Positions 2,243-52,544 of a stretch of 64,000 nucleotides of DNA are shown one piece after another. Within the stretch, counting starts at the first letter, position 1. Each line of letters starts with the position of its first letter. This stretch comes from Thioalkalivibrio sp. AKL19 (lineage in GTDB: Bacteria > Pseudomonadota > Gammaproteobacteria > Ectothiorhodospirales > Ectothiorhodospiraceae), in assembly GCF_000420165.1 (NCBI RefSeq), contig NZ_ATUK01000011.1, positions 62,001-126,000 of the forward strand, read 5' to 3'. The notes under the pieces are model-generated. The model saw only the letters and a list, made by a program, of their open reading frames with translations. It was not told where the DNA came from and did no database searches. The translations under genes and the position numbers were made by a program.

Positions 2243-4093
<1,851 letters not shown>

Positions 4094-22699: not shown

Positions 22700-23803
22700 A
22701 TGGAACTGTCTTTCAATCGCGAGACGATGACCGAAGCGCTGCAACGGATTGTGGGCGCGGCCGAGAAACGGCTGACGATGCCCATCCTGGGAAACGTCCG
22801 TCTGCGCCCGGACGACAATGGATCCATCCGGATGGATACCACCGATCTGGAGCTCGCCTGGCAGGCCGGTGCCGAAGGGACGATCCCCGGGGAATGCGAT
22901 GTCACCGTGTCGGTCCGCAAGCTGCTGGATGTCGTGAAGGCGGCGCCCGCGGACAGCGACATCCGGGCTCGGGTAGAAGGAGAACGCATGACGGTCGGCT
23001 TCGGCGGATCGCGGTTCAGCCTGGCGACTCTGCCGGGGGCGGACTTCCCGGACTGGGAAGCACGCGGGTCGGAGATGGTGCTCGACGTGCCGCAGAACCG
23101 CCTGCGTCGTTTGCTGGAGGCCACCATGTTCTCGATGGCGCAACAGGACGTGCGCTACTACCTCCAGGGATTGCTCCTCGTCGCGAGCGGCACCAGTCTG
23201 CGGGCGGTCGCCACGGACGGGCACCGGCTGGCACTGGCCGAGGTGGACCTGGAACAGCCGGTCGAGGGCCGGGTCGAGCGCATCGTGCCGCGCAAGGCGG
23301 TGGCGGAGCTGCGACGGAATCTCGCGGATGACGACGCGCCGGTGCGCATCGGATTCGGGGAAGACCAGGTCGTGTTCGAACTCGGCAGTGCGGTCCTGCG
23401 CAGCAAGGTAATCGAGGGACGTTTCCCCGATTACGAGCGCGTGATCCCGTCCGATCTGCCGGCGACGCTGAAGGTGGACCGGGAGACGCTGAAGCAGGCG
23501 CTGGGGCGAGTGGCGATCGTGGCGAGTGACAAGTATCGCGGGGTGCGGATGGTGCTGGGCGAGAATGGGTGCCAGGTGATGACACACAACGCGGATCGCG
23601 AAGAGGCACAGGAGTCGGTAGAGGCGGAGTACGACGGGGGACCGATGGAGATCGGGTTCAACCTGGGCTATCTGGCCGATGTGCTGAATGTGCTCGAGAC
23701 GGAACAGGTGCGCATCGGCCTGCGTGACGGCAATTCCTCGATACTGATACAGGCGGAGCCTCCGGGCGGGGCGCGCTACGTCGTCATGCCCATGCGCCTG
23801 TAG
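22700..23803 (+). CDS. dnaN: DNA polymerase III beta sliding clamp
   Basis: This ring clamp tethers polymerase III to DNA. The 367 residues match the family and form three similar domains. It begins MELSFNRETMTEALQRIVG and ends with the canonical MPMRL tail that contacts clamp loader and polymerase partners. RAVATDGHRLALAEVDL and IVPRKAVAELRR are conserved. A terminal-inverted-repeat element begins at its stop codon. Confidence 0.97.
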   Translation: MELSFNRETMTEALQRIVGAAEKRLTMPILGNVRLRPDDNGSIRMDTTDLELAWQAGAEGTIPGECDVTVSVRKLLDVVKAAPADSDIRARVEGERMTVGFGGSRFSLATLPGADFPDWEARGSEMVLDVPQNRLRRLLEATMFSMAQQDVRYYLQGLLLVASGTSLRAVATDGHRLALAEVDLEQPVEGRVERIVPRKAVAELRRNLADDDAPVRIGFGEDQVVFELGSAVLRSKVIEGRFPDYERVIPSDLPATLKVDRETLKQALGRVAIVASDKYRGVRMVLGENGCQVMTHNADREEAQESVEAEYDGGPMEIGFNLGYLADVLNVLETEQVRIGLRDGNSSILIQAEPPGGARYVVMPMRL

Positions 23804-23960
23804 GGATAGACCTTTCCATGTGCACGTTCGCGTTGGTACCCCAGGGTTCCGCACCATCTGTGGCGGCCCTGTCTTGAGCATGGATAGTGGCTGGGCAGCG
23901 TCCGGCGTTCGCGCGCCCAAGCGATTCGAGCGCGAGGGTGTACGTGGATCGGTGTCTCCC
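23803..23960. repeat. Terminal-inverted-repeat element, copy A (158 bp)
   Basis: The left end, GGGATAGACCTTTCCATGTG then CACGTTCGCG, matches the inverse of the right end (on the minus strand GGGAGACACCGATCCACGTA then CACCCTCGCG). The family is shared with 51294-51516 and 62673-62830; this is the most diverged copy. It fills almost the whole dnaN-recF gap, from the last base of the dnaN stop to 16 bases before recF. The only flanking match is TA on each side, too short to call a target duplication. There is no coding capacity. Confidence 0.75.
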
Positions 23961-23976
23961 TAGGTCCGGGGGCGGG

Positions 23977-25059
23977 GTGCTGGAGTCGCTTTGGTGGCAG
24001 GGAGTGCGCAACCTCGGGGAACAGACCCTGGCGCTGGGGCCCGGGATCAATCGGCTGATCGGGCCCAACGGGGCGGGTAAGACCTCGGTCCTGGAAGCCG
24101 TGCACATCCTGGCCGCGGGCCGGTCTTTTCGTACCCAGCACCTGCGGCGGGCCCTGCAAAGCGGAGCCGAGCAGCTGTGGGTCGGGGGTGTGGTGAACAG
24201 TCCGGCCGGCGGGCTTCATCGGTTGGGACTTGCCTGGGACGGGACGCGACGATCCCGGCTGGATGGGCGCTGGATGCAGGGTCATGCCGCGGTGGCGGAG
24301 TGGTTGCCGGTTCGGACACTGCACGCGGGGTCGTTTGAGTTGTTGACGGGCGGACCGGAGGAGCGCAGGCGGCTCCTGGACTGGGGGTGTTTCCACGCCA
24401 TTCCGGGGTACCGGTTGAACTGGCAACGCTGGAAACGGGCGCATGATCAGCGCAATGCGGCGCTGAGGGTCGGCGACCGGGCCGGGGCGAGGGAGTTCGA
24501 ACGACCGTGGGTGGCGTTTGGCGCGGAGATCAGCGAGGCTCGGGCACGATACGTAGAGGCGTGGGCGAGTGCGACGACGGCGGCTGCCGCTCAGTTCGGG
24601 TTCGGTGAACGGCTGGAAGGCCTTGGGCTGAAGGTCCGGATGGGCTGGGATCGCGAACGGCAGCTAGAGGAGGCTCTGGATCGGAGTCGAGAGAGCGATG
24701 AGGAACGGGGGTTTTCCCAGGTGGGCCCGCAACGGGCGGACCTCGATTTGAGGCTGGGTGGGCGCGCGGCGGCCGAGGCGTCGAGGGGAGAACAGAAGCG
24801 CCTGGTCACCGCCCTGGTGGGGGGGCAGGCGCGGATGCTGGAAGCAGAGACCGGACGGTCGCCGGTCCTTCTTCTGGATGACGTGGTTTCGGAGCTGGAT
24901 CGCGAGGCTGTAGAGGGATTGATGGCGGGGTTGCGCGGATCCCACTGGCAAATACTCGTCACGGCCGTGGAAGACGGGATTCCGGGGCTTCGGGGCGAGG
25001 ATTCGGGACAATTGTTCCACGTGAAACATGGCCACGTAAAACCGGCGCCTGCCGCCTGA
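23977..25059 (+). CDS. recF: DNA replication/repair protein RecF
   Basis: This SMC-like ATPase loads RecA at single-strand gaps with RecOR. The GTG at 23977 gives 360 residues (VLESLWWQGVRNL), the family length; an upstream in-frame start at 23887 would lie within the repeat and is rejected. Walker A is GPNGAGKTSVLEAV, the signature region is EASRGEQKRLVTALV, and Walker B is LLLDDVVSELD. The last coding bases contain a parS site (25013-25028), read as part of QLFHVKH. Confidence 0.95.
   Translation: MLESLWWQGVRNLGEQTLALGPGINRLIGPNGAGKTSVLEAVHILAAGRSFRTQHLRRALQSGAEQLWVGGVVNSPAGGLHRLGLAWDGTRRSRLDGRWMQGHAAVAEWLPVRTLHAGSFELLTGGPEERRRLLDWGCFHAIPGYRLNWQRWKRAHDQRNAALRVGDRAGAREFERPWVAFGAEISEARARYVEAWASATTAAAAQFGFGERLEGLGLKVRMGWDRERQLEEALDRSRESDEERGFSQVGPQRADLDLRLGGRAAAEASRGEQKRLVTALVGGQARMLEAETGRSPVLLLDDVVSELDREAVEGLMAGLRGSHWQILVTAVEDGIPGLRGEDSGQLFHVKHGHVKPAPAA
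25013..25028. other. parS centromere site
   Basis: TGTTCCACGTGAAACA matches the bacterial parS consensus TGTTNCACGTGNAACA at every defined position and is palindromic except for one position. It lies inside the 3' end of recF, about 11 kb from parAB and 2.3 kb from the putative oriC. It is the natural loading site for the ParB encoded at 12638-13480. Confidence 0.88.
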
Positions 25060-45069: not shown

Positions 45070-45174
45070 GGCGGCGCGAAGGTTGTCACAAAGCGATAAT
45101 CTAACGCAAAACACCGCCCTCCGCGCGGACTTGTTCGTGTCGGGACGTACGGTCTGCGCTACACTCCCGGATCA

Positions 45175-47238
<2,064 letters not shown>

Positions 47239-49550: not shown

Positions 49551-51272
49551 ATGCAGCGGATCGGTCGCTACGGGGTCGGCGAGGAGATCGGGCGCGGTGC
49601 GATGGCCGTCATCCATCGCGGCTACGACCCGGATATCCGGCGTCCGCTGGCGATCAAGTGCCTGCAGCCGGACTATGCCCGACGGCCCGAGTACCGCCGG
49701 CGCTTCCTGGCCGAAGCGCGCGCCGCCGGCACCCTGACCCACCCGGGCATCGTCACCATCTTCGATGTCGGCGAGTCGGATCAGCAGCCGTTCATCGCGA
49801 TGGAGCTGCTGGATGGCATCACCCTTGCGGAGTTCGCGGAACAGTTCCGCCCGCTGCTGCTGCGCAATGTCCTGAAGGTGGCCATCCAGCTGGTGGAGGC
49901 CCTGGACTATGCCCACCGGCATGGTGTCGTGCACCGCGACATCAAGCCCGAGAACATCATCGTCACCAGCGCCACGGCGAATATCAAGGTGATGGACTTC
50001 GGCATCGCCCGCACCCTCAGCGACCCCGACTGGCGCACCGACGACGACTGGCTTGCCGAGGACGACGACGGCTATATCGCAGGATCGCCGCACTATATGG
50101 CGCCGGAGCAGATTCGTGGCCGCGATACCGACGCTCGTGCCGACCTCTATTCCGTGGGCGTGGTGCTGTACGAGCTCCTGACGGGGGGAACCCCGTTTCG
50201 CGGTCACGATGTCGAGACCCTGCTGACCCGGGTGGTCAAGGATCCGGTCCCCGCACCGCGGGTCATCGTGCGCGATTGTCCGCAGGAACTGATCGAGTTG
50301 GTGCTGCGCCTGTTGGCGAAGGAACCGGACGAGCGCTACCAGTCGGCCGGCGAGCTACTGGTGGACCTCGAGCGGATCGACGAGCAACGCGCCGAGCGCG
50401 AAAGGGCAGGTGCCGGGCGTCGGATTATCCCGCTGCGTCTGCGCTGGGCCGCGGTCATGGGGGCGCTGGTGGCGGTCACCCTGGTGGTCGGTGGCACGCT
50501 GGTACACCAGAAGCAGAATGCGGTGATGACCGATCTGGCGTTCGACTACGGGGCCACGCTGGCGCAGATCGTCTCGGTGGAGAGTGCCGAGGACTTGTTG
50601 CTGGAGGACACCATCGCGGTCCAGGGACGCCTGCGCGACATGCAGGCGAACCGGGAGATTGCCCTGCTGAGCGTCGTGGACCACCGCGGCGAGGTGGTGG
50701 CCAGCAGCGACCCGGAGGCCCTGGGCCAGCCCTACGAGCCGCCTTCCGAGGATCGCCTGCTTCAGCGTCGCGACGGCCAGGCCGTGTGGTCCATCACCGG
50801 GCGCGATGGCGCAGAGCTGTTCATGTTCGAGGCCCCGGTTCACTACCAGGATCATCATCTTGGGCAACTCCAGGTCGGGCTGTCCACGGGGTCCCTGCGC
50901 GCGGCGAACGAGGCCACCTTCATGGCCTTGCTGATGCTCACGCTGGTCACCCTCCTCGCGGTGCTCCTGGGGGCCTACGTGCTTGCCCGGCGTCTTCAGG
51001 CGCCGCTGGACCGCCTGCGCGGGGCGCTGGACCAGATCGGTCAGGGGCGGCTCGATACCCGGATCCGTGCCCGTCGGCACGACGACTTCGAGCGGCTCTT
51101 CAGTGCCTACAACGCGATGGCCGACTCGCTGGAGGCGCGCATGAAGCGCCGGGTCGCCGGGACGCCCGAGGGCGGTGCAGCCGGGCCGGTCGCTGACGGC
51201 GACCGCACCCAGGAGCTCGCATCCGACGAGTTGCCGACTGAAGACGTTTCAAGACGTAACGCTACGGACTAA
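49551..51272 (+). CDS. Membrane Ser/Thr protein kinase with extracytoplasmic sensor and C-terminal HAMP domain
   Basis: The 573 residues start with a Hanks-type kinase domain (5-275). Lys36 in AIKCL, HRDIKPEN with Asp130, DFG at 149-151 and APE at 184-186 are all present, so it should be active. The ATP loop is VGEEIGRGAMAVIHRG. Membrane helix 1 is about 298-318, an extracytoplasmic sensor-like domain 320-455 (LLSVVDHRGEVVASSDPEA is Cache-like), and helix 2 457-478. A HAMP domain follows (480-530) with nothing after it but a polar tail. It is downstream of the FHA gene, and a PP2C phosphatase is encoded nearby on the other strand. Confidence 0.92.
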   Translation: MQRIGRYGVGEEIGRGAMAVIHRGYDPDIRRPLAIKCLQPDYARRPEYRRRFLAEARAAGTLTHPGIVTIFDVGESDQQPFIAMELLDGITLAEFAEQFRPLLLRNVLKVAIQLVEALDYAHRHGVVHRDIKPENIIVTSATANIKVMDFGIARTLSDPDWRTDDDWLAEDDDGYIAGSPHYMAPEQIRGRDTDARADLYSVGVVLYELLTGGTPFRGHDVETLLTRVVKDPVPAPRVIVRDCPQELIELVLRLLAKEPDERYQSAGELLVDLERIDEQRAERERAGAGRRIIPLRLRWAAVMGALVAVTLVVGGTLVHQKQNAVMTDLAFDYGATLAQIVSVESAEDLLLEDTIAVQGRLRDMQANREIALLSVVDHRGEVVASSDPEALGQPYEPPSEDRLLQRRDGQAVWSITGRDGAELFMFEAPVHYQDHHLGQLQVGLSTGSLRAANEATFMALLMLTLVTLLAVLLGAYVLARRLQAPLDRLRGALDQIGQGRLDTRIRARRHDDFERLFSAYNAMADSLEARMKRRVAGTPEGGAAGPVADGDRTQELASDELPTEDVSRRNATD

Positions 51273-51293
51273 TGCCGGCCGTTCTCGCGGTCT

Positions 51294-51516
51294 GGGGAAA
51301 CACCGATTCATGTACACGTTCGCGTTGGCATCCCGGGTTCCCCGAGACCAGGCGCGTCGTGCAGTGGGTAGTGGTTCCACCCGCACGTCGTGATCCGAAC
51401 CGGGCGCGCGCGGCGTTGCGGCTCCCCTGTGCAGAATGCAGCATGGCGGTCACCGCGCCTTGTTCGCACGCAAGAGCGACTCGAGCGCGAACGTGTACAT
51501 GAATCAGTCTTTCCCC
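51294..51516. repeat. Terminal-inverted-repeat element, copy B (223 bp)
   Basis: The left end GGGGAAACACCGATTCATGT then ACACGTTCGCG and the inverse of the right end, GGGGAAAGACTGATTCATGT then ACACGTTCGCG, agree at 29 of 31 positions. Compared with copies A and C (158 bp each) it carries about 65 extra bases in the middle (near 51350-51412). It lies between the convergent kinase and LysM genes and supplies the last three codons and stop of the latter. No open frame inside is plausible. Confidence 0.85.
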
Positions 51517-52544
51517 AGGGCATCCAGGCGACGCTGCAGTTCCAGGGCTCGCAGGCGATAGCCGCGCGCCGCCTCGAACCCGGGGTCGATCGCCAGGGCC
51601 TCGTCCCACAGCGCGATGGCCGTATCCAGGTCCTGATTGCGGTAATGGACGATGGCCTCGGCGTGCAGCGCCTCCTTGCGTTGCTGTTCCAGCTCGCCGT
51701 GGTGCTGGCGCGCCGGGGCATGTTGCGGATCGCGTGCGAGTACCTCGCCAAAGGCCTCCAGCGCGTCTTCGGGTTCCCCGGCTGAACGGGCCTCCTGGCC
51801 GCGCTGATACCAGTAGCCGATCTCCGCGTCGCGGGCCAGAGGCTCCAGCCAGCCGGTCCATTCGTCGCGTGCCTCGGGGTGCCGGCGGGCCCGTTCCACC
51901 ACTTCCCGGGCCGACGCGTAGCGCTCCGCGGCCAGATCGGCCTCGAGCGCGCGCCGCAGGCCGTCCTCGCCATCCCCGGGAGCGGCATCCGGATCCAGCG
52001 CCATCAATTGATCATCCAGGTCGCTCTCGCCGTGTTGCAGCCCTGATGGATCCCGCGGGATGCGCAGTTGTTGTCCGGCAAGCAGCCGGTCCGGTCGCTC
52101 GATGTCGTTGTAGCGCGCGAGGATCACGAAGCGATTGGCGTCGCCCAGGTGTTCGCGCGCCAGCCGGGCCAGGGTCTCGCCCGGTTCTACCGTGTGCTGA
52201 AAGTAGTCGTCGCCGAGGCTGGCCCGCGGATCGTCGGAGAGCTGTTCGCGCAGGTTGCGGGCCGTGCGATGGTCCGGCTCGGCTGCGAGCAGCCGGTCCA
52301 GTTCCCGCCCTGCCCGGTCCATCTCGCCACGCTGCAATAGCTGCACGATCTCGGCAATCGCGAGGCGTTTCACCTTCGTTTCTCCCGCCGCCGGTTCGGG
52401 CGGGGTCTCTTCGGCCGGCACCGCTTCTTCATCGACCTCGGCCTCGGGGTCGAACAGGCCCTGCAGCTGCGCACAGCCGGACAGCGAAACGGCCAGTACG
52501 GCGAGCAGCACGAGGCGCGTAAGCGGGGTTTCGGATGGTTTCAT
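51504..52544 (-). CDS. LysM-domain lipoprotein with TPR-like repeats
   Basis: The 346 residues open with a lipoprotein signal ending VSLSGC (Cys24). An acidic linker (28-52) precedes a helical pair and a LysM domain (about 115-162) containing TVEPGETLARLAREHLGD and LLAGQQLRIP, which binds peptidoglycan glycan chains. TPR-like helices fill the C-terminal half (GQEARSAGEPEDALEAFGEV and IALWDEALAIDPGFEAARGY). The start at 52544 has no strong ribosome site. The final residues GKD and the TGA lie in the end of a repeat element, so the natural C terminus may have been altered. Confidence 0.85.
   Translation of the reverse strand: MKPSETPLTRLVLLAVLAVSLSGCAQLQGLFDPEAEVDEEAVPAEETPPEPAAGETKVKRLAIAEIVQLLQRGEMDRAGRELDRLLAAEPDHRTARNLREQLSDDPRASLGDDYFQHTVEPGETLARLAREHLGDANRFVILARYNDIERPDRLLAGQQLRIPRDPSGLQHGESDLDDQLMALDPDAAPGDGEDGLRRALEADLAAERYASAREVVERARRHPEARDEWTGWLEPLARDAEIGYWYQRGQEARSAGEPEDALEAFGEVLARDPQHAPARQHHGELEQQRKEALHAEAIVHYRNQDLDTAIALWDEALAIDPGFEAARGYRLRALELQRRLDALGKD

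Follow-up and report, generated by a model that had tools for sequence, protein, structure and literature searches.

A gap between two convergent genes of Thioalkalivibrio sp. AKL19 contains a sequence whose outer 31 bases match the inverted other end at 29 positions, as had been noted before, and the question raised by this locus is what kind of element recurs in such gaps and how its insertion is tolerated there. Within the window (the whole stretch of DNA that was analysed, 64,000 nucleotides), a sequence-only reading had described three related intergenic repeats and proposed that they are a miniature inverted-repeat transposable element (MITE) or a structured repeat specific to the lineage. 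All three are indeed present. The 18-mer GGGAAACACTGATGCATG, with up to three mismatches allowed, matches the window four times (at both ends of copy B and both ends of copy C) against 0.01 matches expected, and copies A, B and C can be aligned with one another in both orientations.

The repeats of the window and their family

Copy B (51296..51514, plus strand; coordinates of the three copies are those of the element proper, with the target duplication left out) is a shortened element of 219 bp. It lies between the gene of a protein kinase with HAMP and Cache domains (49551..51272, plus strand; Pfam) and that of a TPR/LysM protein (51504..52511, minus strand), the predicted 3' end of which runs over the final bases of the copy. 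The 4-bp flank on its left, CTGG (51292..51295, plus strand), is the inverse complement of that on its right, CCAG (51515..51518, plus strand). The element is absent from the orthologous place in three genomes (G002, G009 and G021). Near this site a further genome (G022, locus L345) has a 29-bp palindromic remnant that consists of the two ends only, and in another (G004, locus L341) a 295-bp copy stands elsewhere in the gap between these convergent genes, following the TAA that ends the upstream gene, and is probably an insertion independent of copy B. Copy C (62674..62829, plus strand), a shortened element of 156 bp, occupies the gap between divergent genes for a fatty acid desaturase (61339..62514, minus strand; Pfam) and an EamA transporter (62943..63845, plus strand; Pfam). 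Copy A (23804..23959, plus strand) is a decayed element of 156 bp in sense orientation, and the TAG stop of dnaN, which encodes the beta subunit of DNA polymerase III (22700..23803, plus strand; Pfam PF00712, PF02767 and PF02768), is immediately 5' of it. The open frame that follows (23887..25059, plus strand) has recF-like sequence; by the gene order dnaA-dnaN-recF-gyrB and its resemblance to RecF it is the putative recF, and its start is likely to be the GTG 3' of copy A.

The equal length of 158 bp previously given to A and C does not describe the unit of the family, since full copies measure 262-344 bp and each of the three in the window is shortened internally. Likewise, the statement that none of the repeats encodes a protein is correct for the window copies, which have no full frame (that of copy A meets a stop 19 codons after its ATG), but does not extend to most full-length copies, which contain an open frame, mostly of 79-99 codons. 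At the gathering score no window copy matched Rfam, the one match in the window being a TPP riboswitch at 45170-45267 (RF00059, 69.5 bits).

A search of the organism's own genome (2.88 Mb) with copy C returned 119 match rows and at least 40 copies: the strongest 40 rows lie at 40 separate places, and 40 of the 83 candidates were scored. Carriers make up 16 of the 58 genomes searched (own included), namely 16 of 30 from Thioalkalivibrio and none of 28 others. A scan of named genomes found at least 106 stretches, and all 80 matches listed carry the title Thioalkalivibrio; furthermore, when 369 genomes of the class were examined, two had the exact end pattern and both are Thioalkalivibrio. Spread on plasmids or phages was considered and ruled out, as neither gave a family match at E 1e-5 and viral contigs gave none.

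The counts below rest on three sets of copies. Set 1 comes from 186 loci with 165 full matches, of which 3 were at locus edges and the remainder merged into 152 distinct copies (36 partial matches were left out); 4 of the 152 had no two neighbours, which leaves 148. Set 2 consists of 82 copies after 2 partial ones and 24 already in set 1 were dropped; it was drawn from matches resembling an intact ATG copy, so that intact frames are over-represented in it, and the predictions for it were fixed before its analysis. Set 3 was obtained by searching two genomes individually, which gave 77 full copies (52 of them new) and 6 partial ones; one of the 52 lacked neighbours, leaving 51. These 281 copies were merged wherever one flank is common, resulting in 214 sites. 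Copies shorter than 262 bp, the three of the window included, stand outside all counts.

Ends, target duplications and empty sites

The element ends in GGAAACACTGAT, which, with CAATG after it, is common to insertion sequence (IS) copies of 1169-1220 bp that have both ends, two of which are flanked by CTAG on both sides. One such IS of 1188 bp in the organism's own genome encodes a 342-aa transposase of the IS5 family (NF033581, E 1.8e-91), and the ends of the repeat match those of this resident element over 12-17 bp. There is no transposase gene inside the repeat itself, copies of which mostly measure 265-313 bp. The main subfamily resembles the left end of the IS (GATCAATG) and a subfamily without the ATG discussed below resembles its right end (GATTTAATC), so each subfamily seems to have arisen by inverted duplication of one IS end. 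The transposase was found in 6 of the 30 genomes of the genus (one by a partial match), all of them carriers, and at E 1e-20 it was not detected in 10 of the 16 carrier genomes; it is the putative source of mobilisation.

The target consensus of the IS5 family is YTAR. The duplication flanking the repeats is a 4-bp YTAR, chiefly CTAG or TTAA: among the 152 distinct copies, identical flanks of 4 bp occur at 67 (44 CTAG and 14 TTAA), of 3 bp at 2 and of 5 bp at 3. Counted once per site, identical 4-bp flanks occur at 87 of 214, against a shuffled mean of 38.5 and a maximum of 54. Inverted rather than direct flanks were considered and rejected, with 9 copies direct only, 3 inverted only, 58 both (these being palindromic) and 82 neither. 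In four loci of the organism's own genome (L065, L066, L069 and L071, the last at position 3455) there are extra GGAAACACTGAT ends that have no partner close by and are not followed by the usual arm sequence.

Orthologous sites that lack the element were found at several places; in these comparisons, genomes that are more distant may have another gene downstream. One site (L013) is filled in 2 of 23 matched genomes and unfilled in 21, one of which has 98 percent flank identity; in the filled state the upstream gene ends in CTAG, the element follows, and the second CTAG is 2 nt from the next start codon. Another (L010), between genes that are putatively lexA and imuA, is filled in 3 of 29 genomes and reduced to a remnant in two more (G021 and G022), where just TAG and the left end precede the ATG of the downstream gene. 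The dnaN-recF gap is filled in 2 of 27 matched genomes, by the decayed copy A and by a 308-bp copy in G004 (L476) directly after the dnaN stop, and no element was seen in the other 25. The numerous copies and the empty sites, both of which the sequence-only reading had named as signs of mobility, together with the target duplications and an IS5-family element with matching ends, support its proposal of a MITE, and it is very likely that the family is a non-autonomous IS5-type MITE of Thioalkalivibrio.

Orientation and reading frame within operons

The orientation of the copies between genes and their open frame go beyond the sequence-only reading and are newly found here. Neighbouring genes were called by a codon-usage script trained on the loci and not taken from curated annotation; the script missed recF beside copy A. 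In set 1, 103 of the 148 copies lie between co-directional genes, with 83 in sense and 20 in antisense; the corresponding ratios are 44:10 in set 2 and 25:7 in set 3. Counted once per site over the 214 sites, sense to antisense is 109:32 between co-directional genes, and 49:10 in tight gaps, by which we mean those where the two gaps beside the element total at most 60 bp.

An ATG lies 14 nt inside the element (element nt 15-17) at 154 of the 214 sites, and its frame mostly crosses the element. In tight gaps the copies with this ATG stand at 45:5 (sense to antisense) and those without it at 4:5 (p 0.005). In loose gaps the ATG-less subfamily is also biased toward sense (16:3), which argues that the ATG is not the whole cause, and overall the ratio does not differ by ATG (89:24 with, 20:8 without, p 0.45). 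The loose-gap figure favours a possible but clearly less probable explanation, namely that this is an ordinary IS5-type MITE whose sense bias has some other directional cause (RNA processing, mRNA stability or biased insertion) and whose open frame is a by-product of few stops. The missing bias of ATG-less copies in tight gaps counts against it (n is only 9), as does the finding that neither of two copies examined contains a promoter- or terminator-like site.

At the 45 sense-tight sites with the ATG, the first stop falls 14 nt before the element's end in 14, in the TAG of the right duplication in 10, beyond it in 19 (16 of which have no stop within 14 nt of flank) and prematurely in 2. By raw count, the end of the frame is at most 60 nt from the next start at 39 of these 45 sites. 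The stop of the upstream gene coincides exactly with the left duplication at 18 of the 49 sense-tight sites, and at 16 it falls 11 or 15 nt into the terminal repeat. YTAR includes TAG or TAA, and thus an insertion at a stop codon keeps the upstream stop and adds another copy of it at the opposite end; in many cases the stop of the upstream gene belongs to the duplicated YTAR. Targeting of stop codons as such was considered and rejected: of the 36 YTAR sites in the window, 10 are stop codons, 19 intergenic and 7 within genes, and a preference for YTAR combined with loss of intragenic insertions can explain the appearance of it. In antisense-tight sites the equivalent frame is closed after 16 codons at 8 of 10. 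At one antisense-tight locus (L204, 2537-2831) this normally closed frame is open to 14 nt before the end.

The ATG with an open frame occurs at 43 of 49 sense-tight sites, compared with 52 of the 105 sites that are convergent, divergent or antisense (p 2.9e-6), a contrast that is partly one of subfamily composition, as 18 of the 33 convergent sites are of the ATG-less subfamily. Among ATG copies only, the frame is open in 43 of 45 sense-tight and 52 of 65 other copies (p 0.023). Stratified by HMM score the contrast of ATG plus open frame gives p 0.016, and the median HMM scores of the classes are similar (313, 306, 307, 302 and 300), which argues that youth alone is no explanation. The antisense control frame gives 41 of 49 against 81 of 105 (p 0.40). 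Regardless of the ATG, the frame is open at 97 of 109 sense sites and 76 of 105 others (p 0.003). The remaining two plus frames and two minus frames are without a context difference, and minus frame 14 differs in the opposite direction (6 of 109 against 15 of 105, p 0.04); an effect of the expected direction that is confined to the ATG frame is not what an ordinary MITE with few stops leads one to expect. That explanation nevertheless gains from a frame on the minus strand that likewise has no stop in 122 of the 152 copies, and from the comparison of ATG copies in sense with all others, which reaches only p 0.059 (81 of 89 against 52 of 65); for ATG-less copies the figures are 16 of 20 in sense and 24 of 40 elsewhere (p 0.15).

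Set 2 bore out the predicted sense excess in tight gaps (21:5) and the predicted ATG with open frame in all 21 sense-tight copies. Over the whole of set 2, however, the open frame was no commoner in sense (37 of 44 against 33 of 38, p 0.76), as an ordinary MITE would have it, and the frame ended at the two predicted positions in only 35 of 70 copies, 31 having no stop in the element and 14 nt of flank. In set 3 the ATG and open frame were present in all 10 sense-tight copies and in none of the 7 convergent ones; the ATG is missing from all seven of the latter, in six of which the frame is nevertheless open.

A recurrent start and frame, with main length classes about 5 codons apart, might suggest a functional small protein of, in most copies, 79-99 aa, and we consider this the most improbable of the explanations weighed here. 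The ratio pN/pS is 0.74 (in 57 of 152 rows, selected for the ATG, the main length class and an open frame) and codon periodicity is slight, both of which also speak for an ordinary MITE; one representative frame has no match in Pfam, NCBIfam or PDB; and the total length is 1 modulo 3 in 28 of the 45 sense-tight copies, leaving 17 off the main frame class. On the strength of the pN/pS, the periodicity and the unmatched representative a protein function was rejected, and the peptide itself seems not to be important. In three genomes (L434, L438 and L441; 1518-2030) the element frame continues in frame into a downstream small-protein gene with a CPYCGTQF motif, forming a 170-aa open frame. At a further locus (L443, 476-1504, minus strand) the ATG of a solitary left end begins a 342-aa open frame, the length of which may be due to chance.

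Termination followed by reinitiation, and polarity mediated by Rho, are established principles. We consider it somewhat probable, from what the sequences suggest, that the family is a non-autonomous IS5-family MITE made compatible with operons by translation across it. Ribosomes finishing the upstream gene would restart at the ATG of the element, translate through the hairpin and terminate close to the start of the next gene; the coupling of transcription to translation would thereby be kept and Rho-type polarity avoided. Antisense copies, the frame of which is shut after 16 codons at most antisense-tight sites, would be polar and lost from operons. No strong Shine-Dalgarno sequence was seen by eye 5' of the ATG, which counts against such a relay, as do the pN/pS of 0.74 with its slight periodicity and the total length of sense-tight copies, which is not fixed to a single frame. 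Such a relay would explain copies inside essential operons, and it is weighed against by the sense copy A at dnaN-recF, in which the frame is lost. The fuller proposal, for which we see an even chance, is that the element is translationally transparent: a stop duplicated at both ends, a left end that acts as stop and restart, an inner frame that carries ribosomes, colonisation of essential operons (dnaN-recF) without polarity, and a left end that can be kept as a stop-start junction. In compact bacterial genomes operons are dense and insertions within them are usually polar. If translation across the element does occur, its stop-restart frame would explain the survival of dozens of copies in such genomes, and it offers a direct way to test whether an insert is tolerated because ribosomes can translate across it. 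Natural experiments are at hand in the subfamilies with and without the ATG, and in the site cut down to stop, left end and ATG in two genomes. An operon adaptation of an IS5-type MITE, which we slightly favour on comparative grounds, would be unusual and is testable.

Known MITEs of the IS5 family share with the present one the IS-like terminal inverted repeats, the 4-bp YTAR duplication, the lack of a transposase, the many copies and the empty sites; the Thioalkalivibrio family differs in its strong sense bias in operons, its putative open relay frame, its long covarying arms and the mixing of three modules of about 15 bp between copies. Family-wide orientation bias or a relay frame is not among the features described in the accessible part of the account of the Chunjie MITE of Geobacter uraniireducens (Chen 2008). 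Rickettsia palindromic elements are likewise mobile palindromic repeats with a conserved peptide frame, but nearly half of them, according to the portion of their description available, lie in frame inside genes, whereas the Thioalkalivibrio frame starts and stops between genes, and an overlap of more than 60 bp between a copy and a predicted gene was seen in 0 of 148 cases in set 1 and 0 of 82 in set 2. The enterobacterial repeats RU-1 to RU-3 (Delihas 2007) are MITE-like and have open frames; the available excerpt describes fusions within gene loci and does not describe insertion at a stop codon or a relay. MITEAba12 of Acinetobacter similarly has a known IS parent and target duplications, but its own features, as far as the accessible text gives them, are insertion without a preferred orientation, two or more stops in each of the six frames and the 9-bp target duplication of its parent. 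The GTAG REPs and REPINs of Thioalkalivibrio are also palindromic repeats of this genus, and differ, in the part of their description at hand, in being 20-40 bp long and associated with RAYT; the length of mostly 265-313 bp and the IS5-family ends set the present repeats apart from that class. In open-licence papers we found no description of this family or of a relay MITE, which is weak evidence of absence.

Pairing of the arms

The strong hairpin that had been anticipated was confirmed, although selection on an RNA fold was not. For one full element (L002) the predicted folding energy is -175 kcal/mol for the plus strand and -170 kcal/mol for the minus strand, with z scores of -10.6 and -10.8. 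At nt 13-20 the two arms agree fully in 103 of 152 copies (shuffled mean 15), and for the 88 pairs common to both strands, over the 214 sites, 900 cells are changed yet still Watson-Crick paired, against a shuffled mean of 259. These values would suit a structured non-coding RNA with its fold kept by selection, an explanation that we regard as very improbable. Selection on RNA would favour G-U pairs on the transcribed strand, and sense copies do not have more G-U than A-C (134 and 181, respectively, in the 88 columns; 86 and 100 in the 82 that are well paired), which argues against selection for an RNA fold; despite the strong covariation, RNA structure was on this ground rejected as the main cause. 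Moreover, 308 of 701 double changes in the well-paired columns of all copies are of transversion type, and in 8 full-length loci no Rfam match up to E 1 covered the element, in keeping with the result for the window copies. Elsewhere in one locus (L003, 723-818) there is a sub-threshold Rfam match to anti-hemB, at 39.6 bits against 49.5.

The strand-symmetric covariation instead points to correction of the arms at the level of DNA. Template switching homogenises the arms of inverted repeats and can create and maintain hairpins, as the accessible portions of two papers describe (PMC8604942, PMC8794818). The identity of the arms may be maintained here by such switching between them, and the arms would then be a bacterial case of template switching that holds long hairpins paired without selection on RNA.

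Nearly all of the 152 distinct full copies are near 265, 280, 295 or 310 bp and, judged by eye, a segment of about 15 bp is present or absent at each of three places, in mixed combinations. Among twelve pairs of orthologous copies (flank identity 78-99.5 percent), at least one such segment separates the two copies in seven and none does in five, and we read these differences as conversion between copies at separate sites. At least one pair (L096/L113) differs at the two sides of a stem in a matching way.
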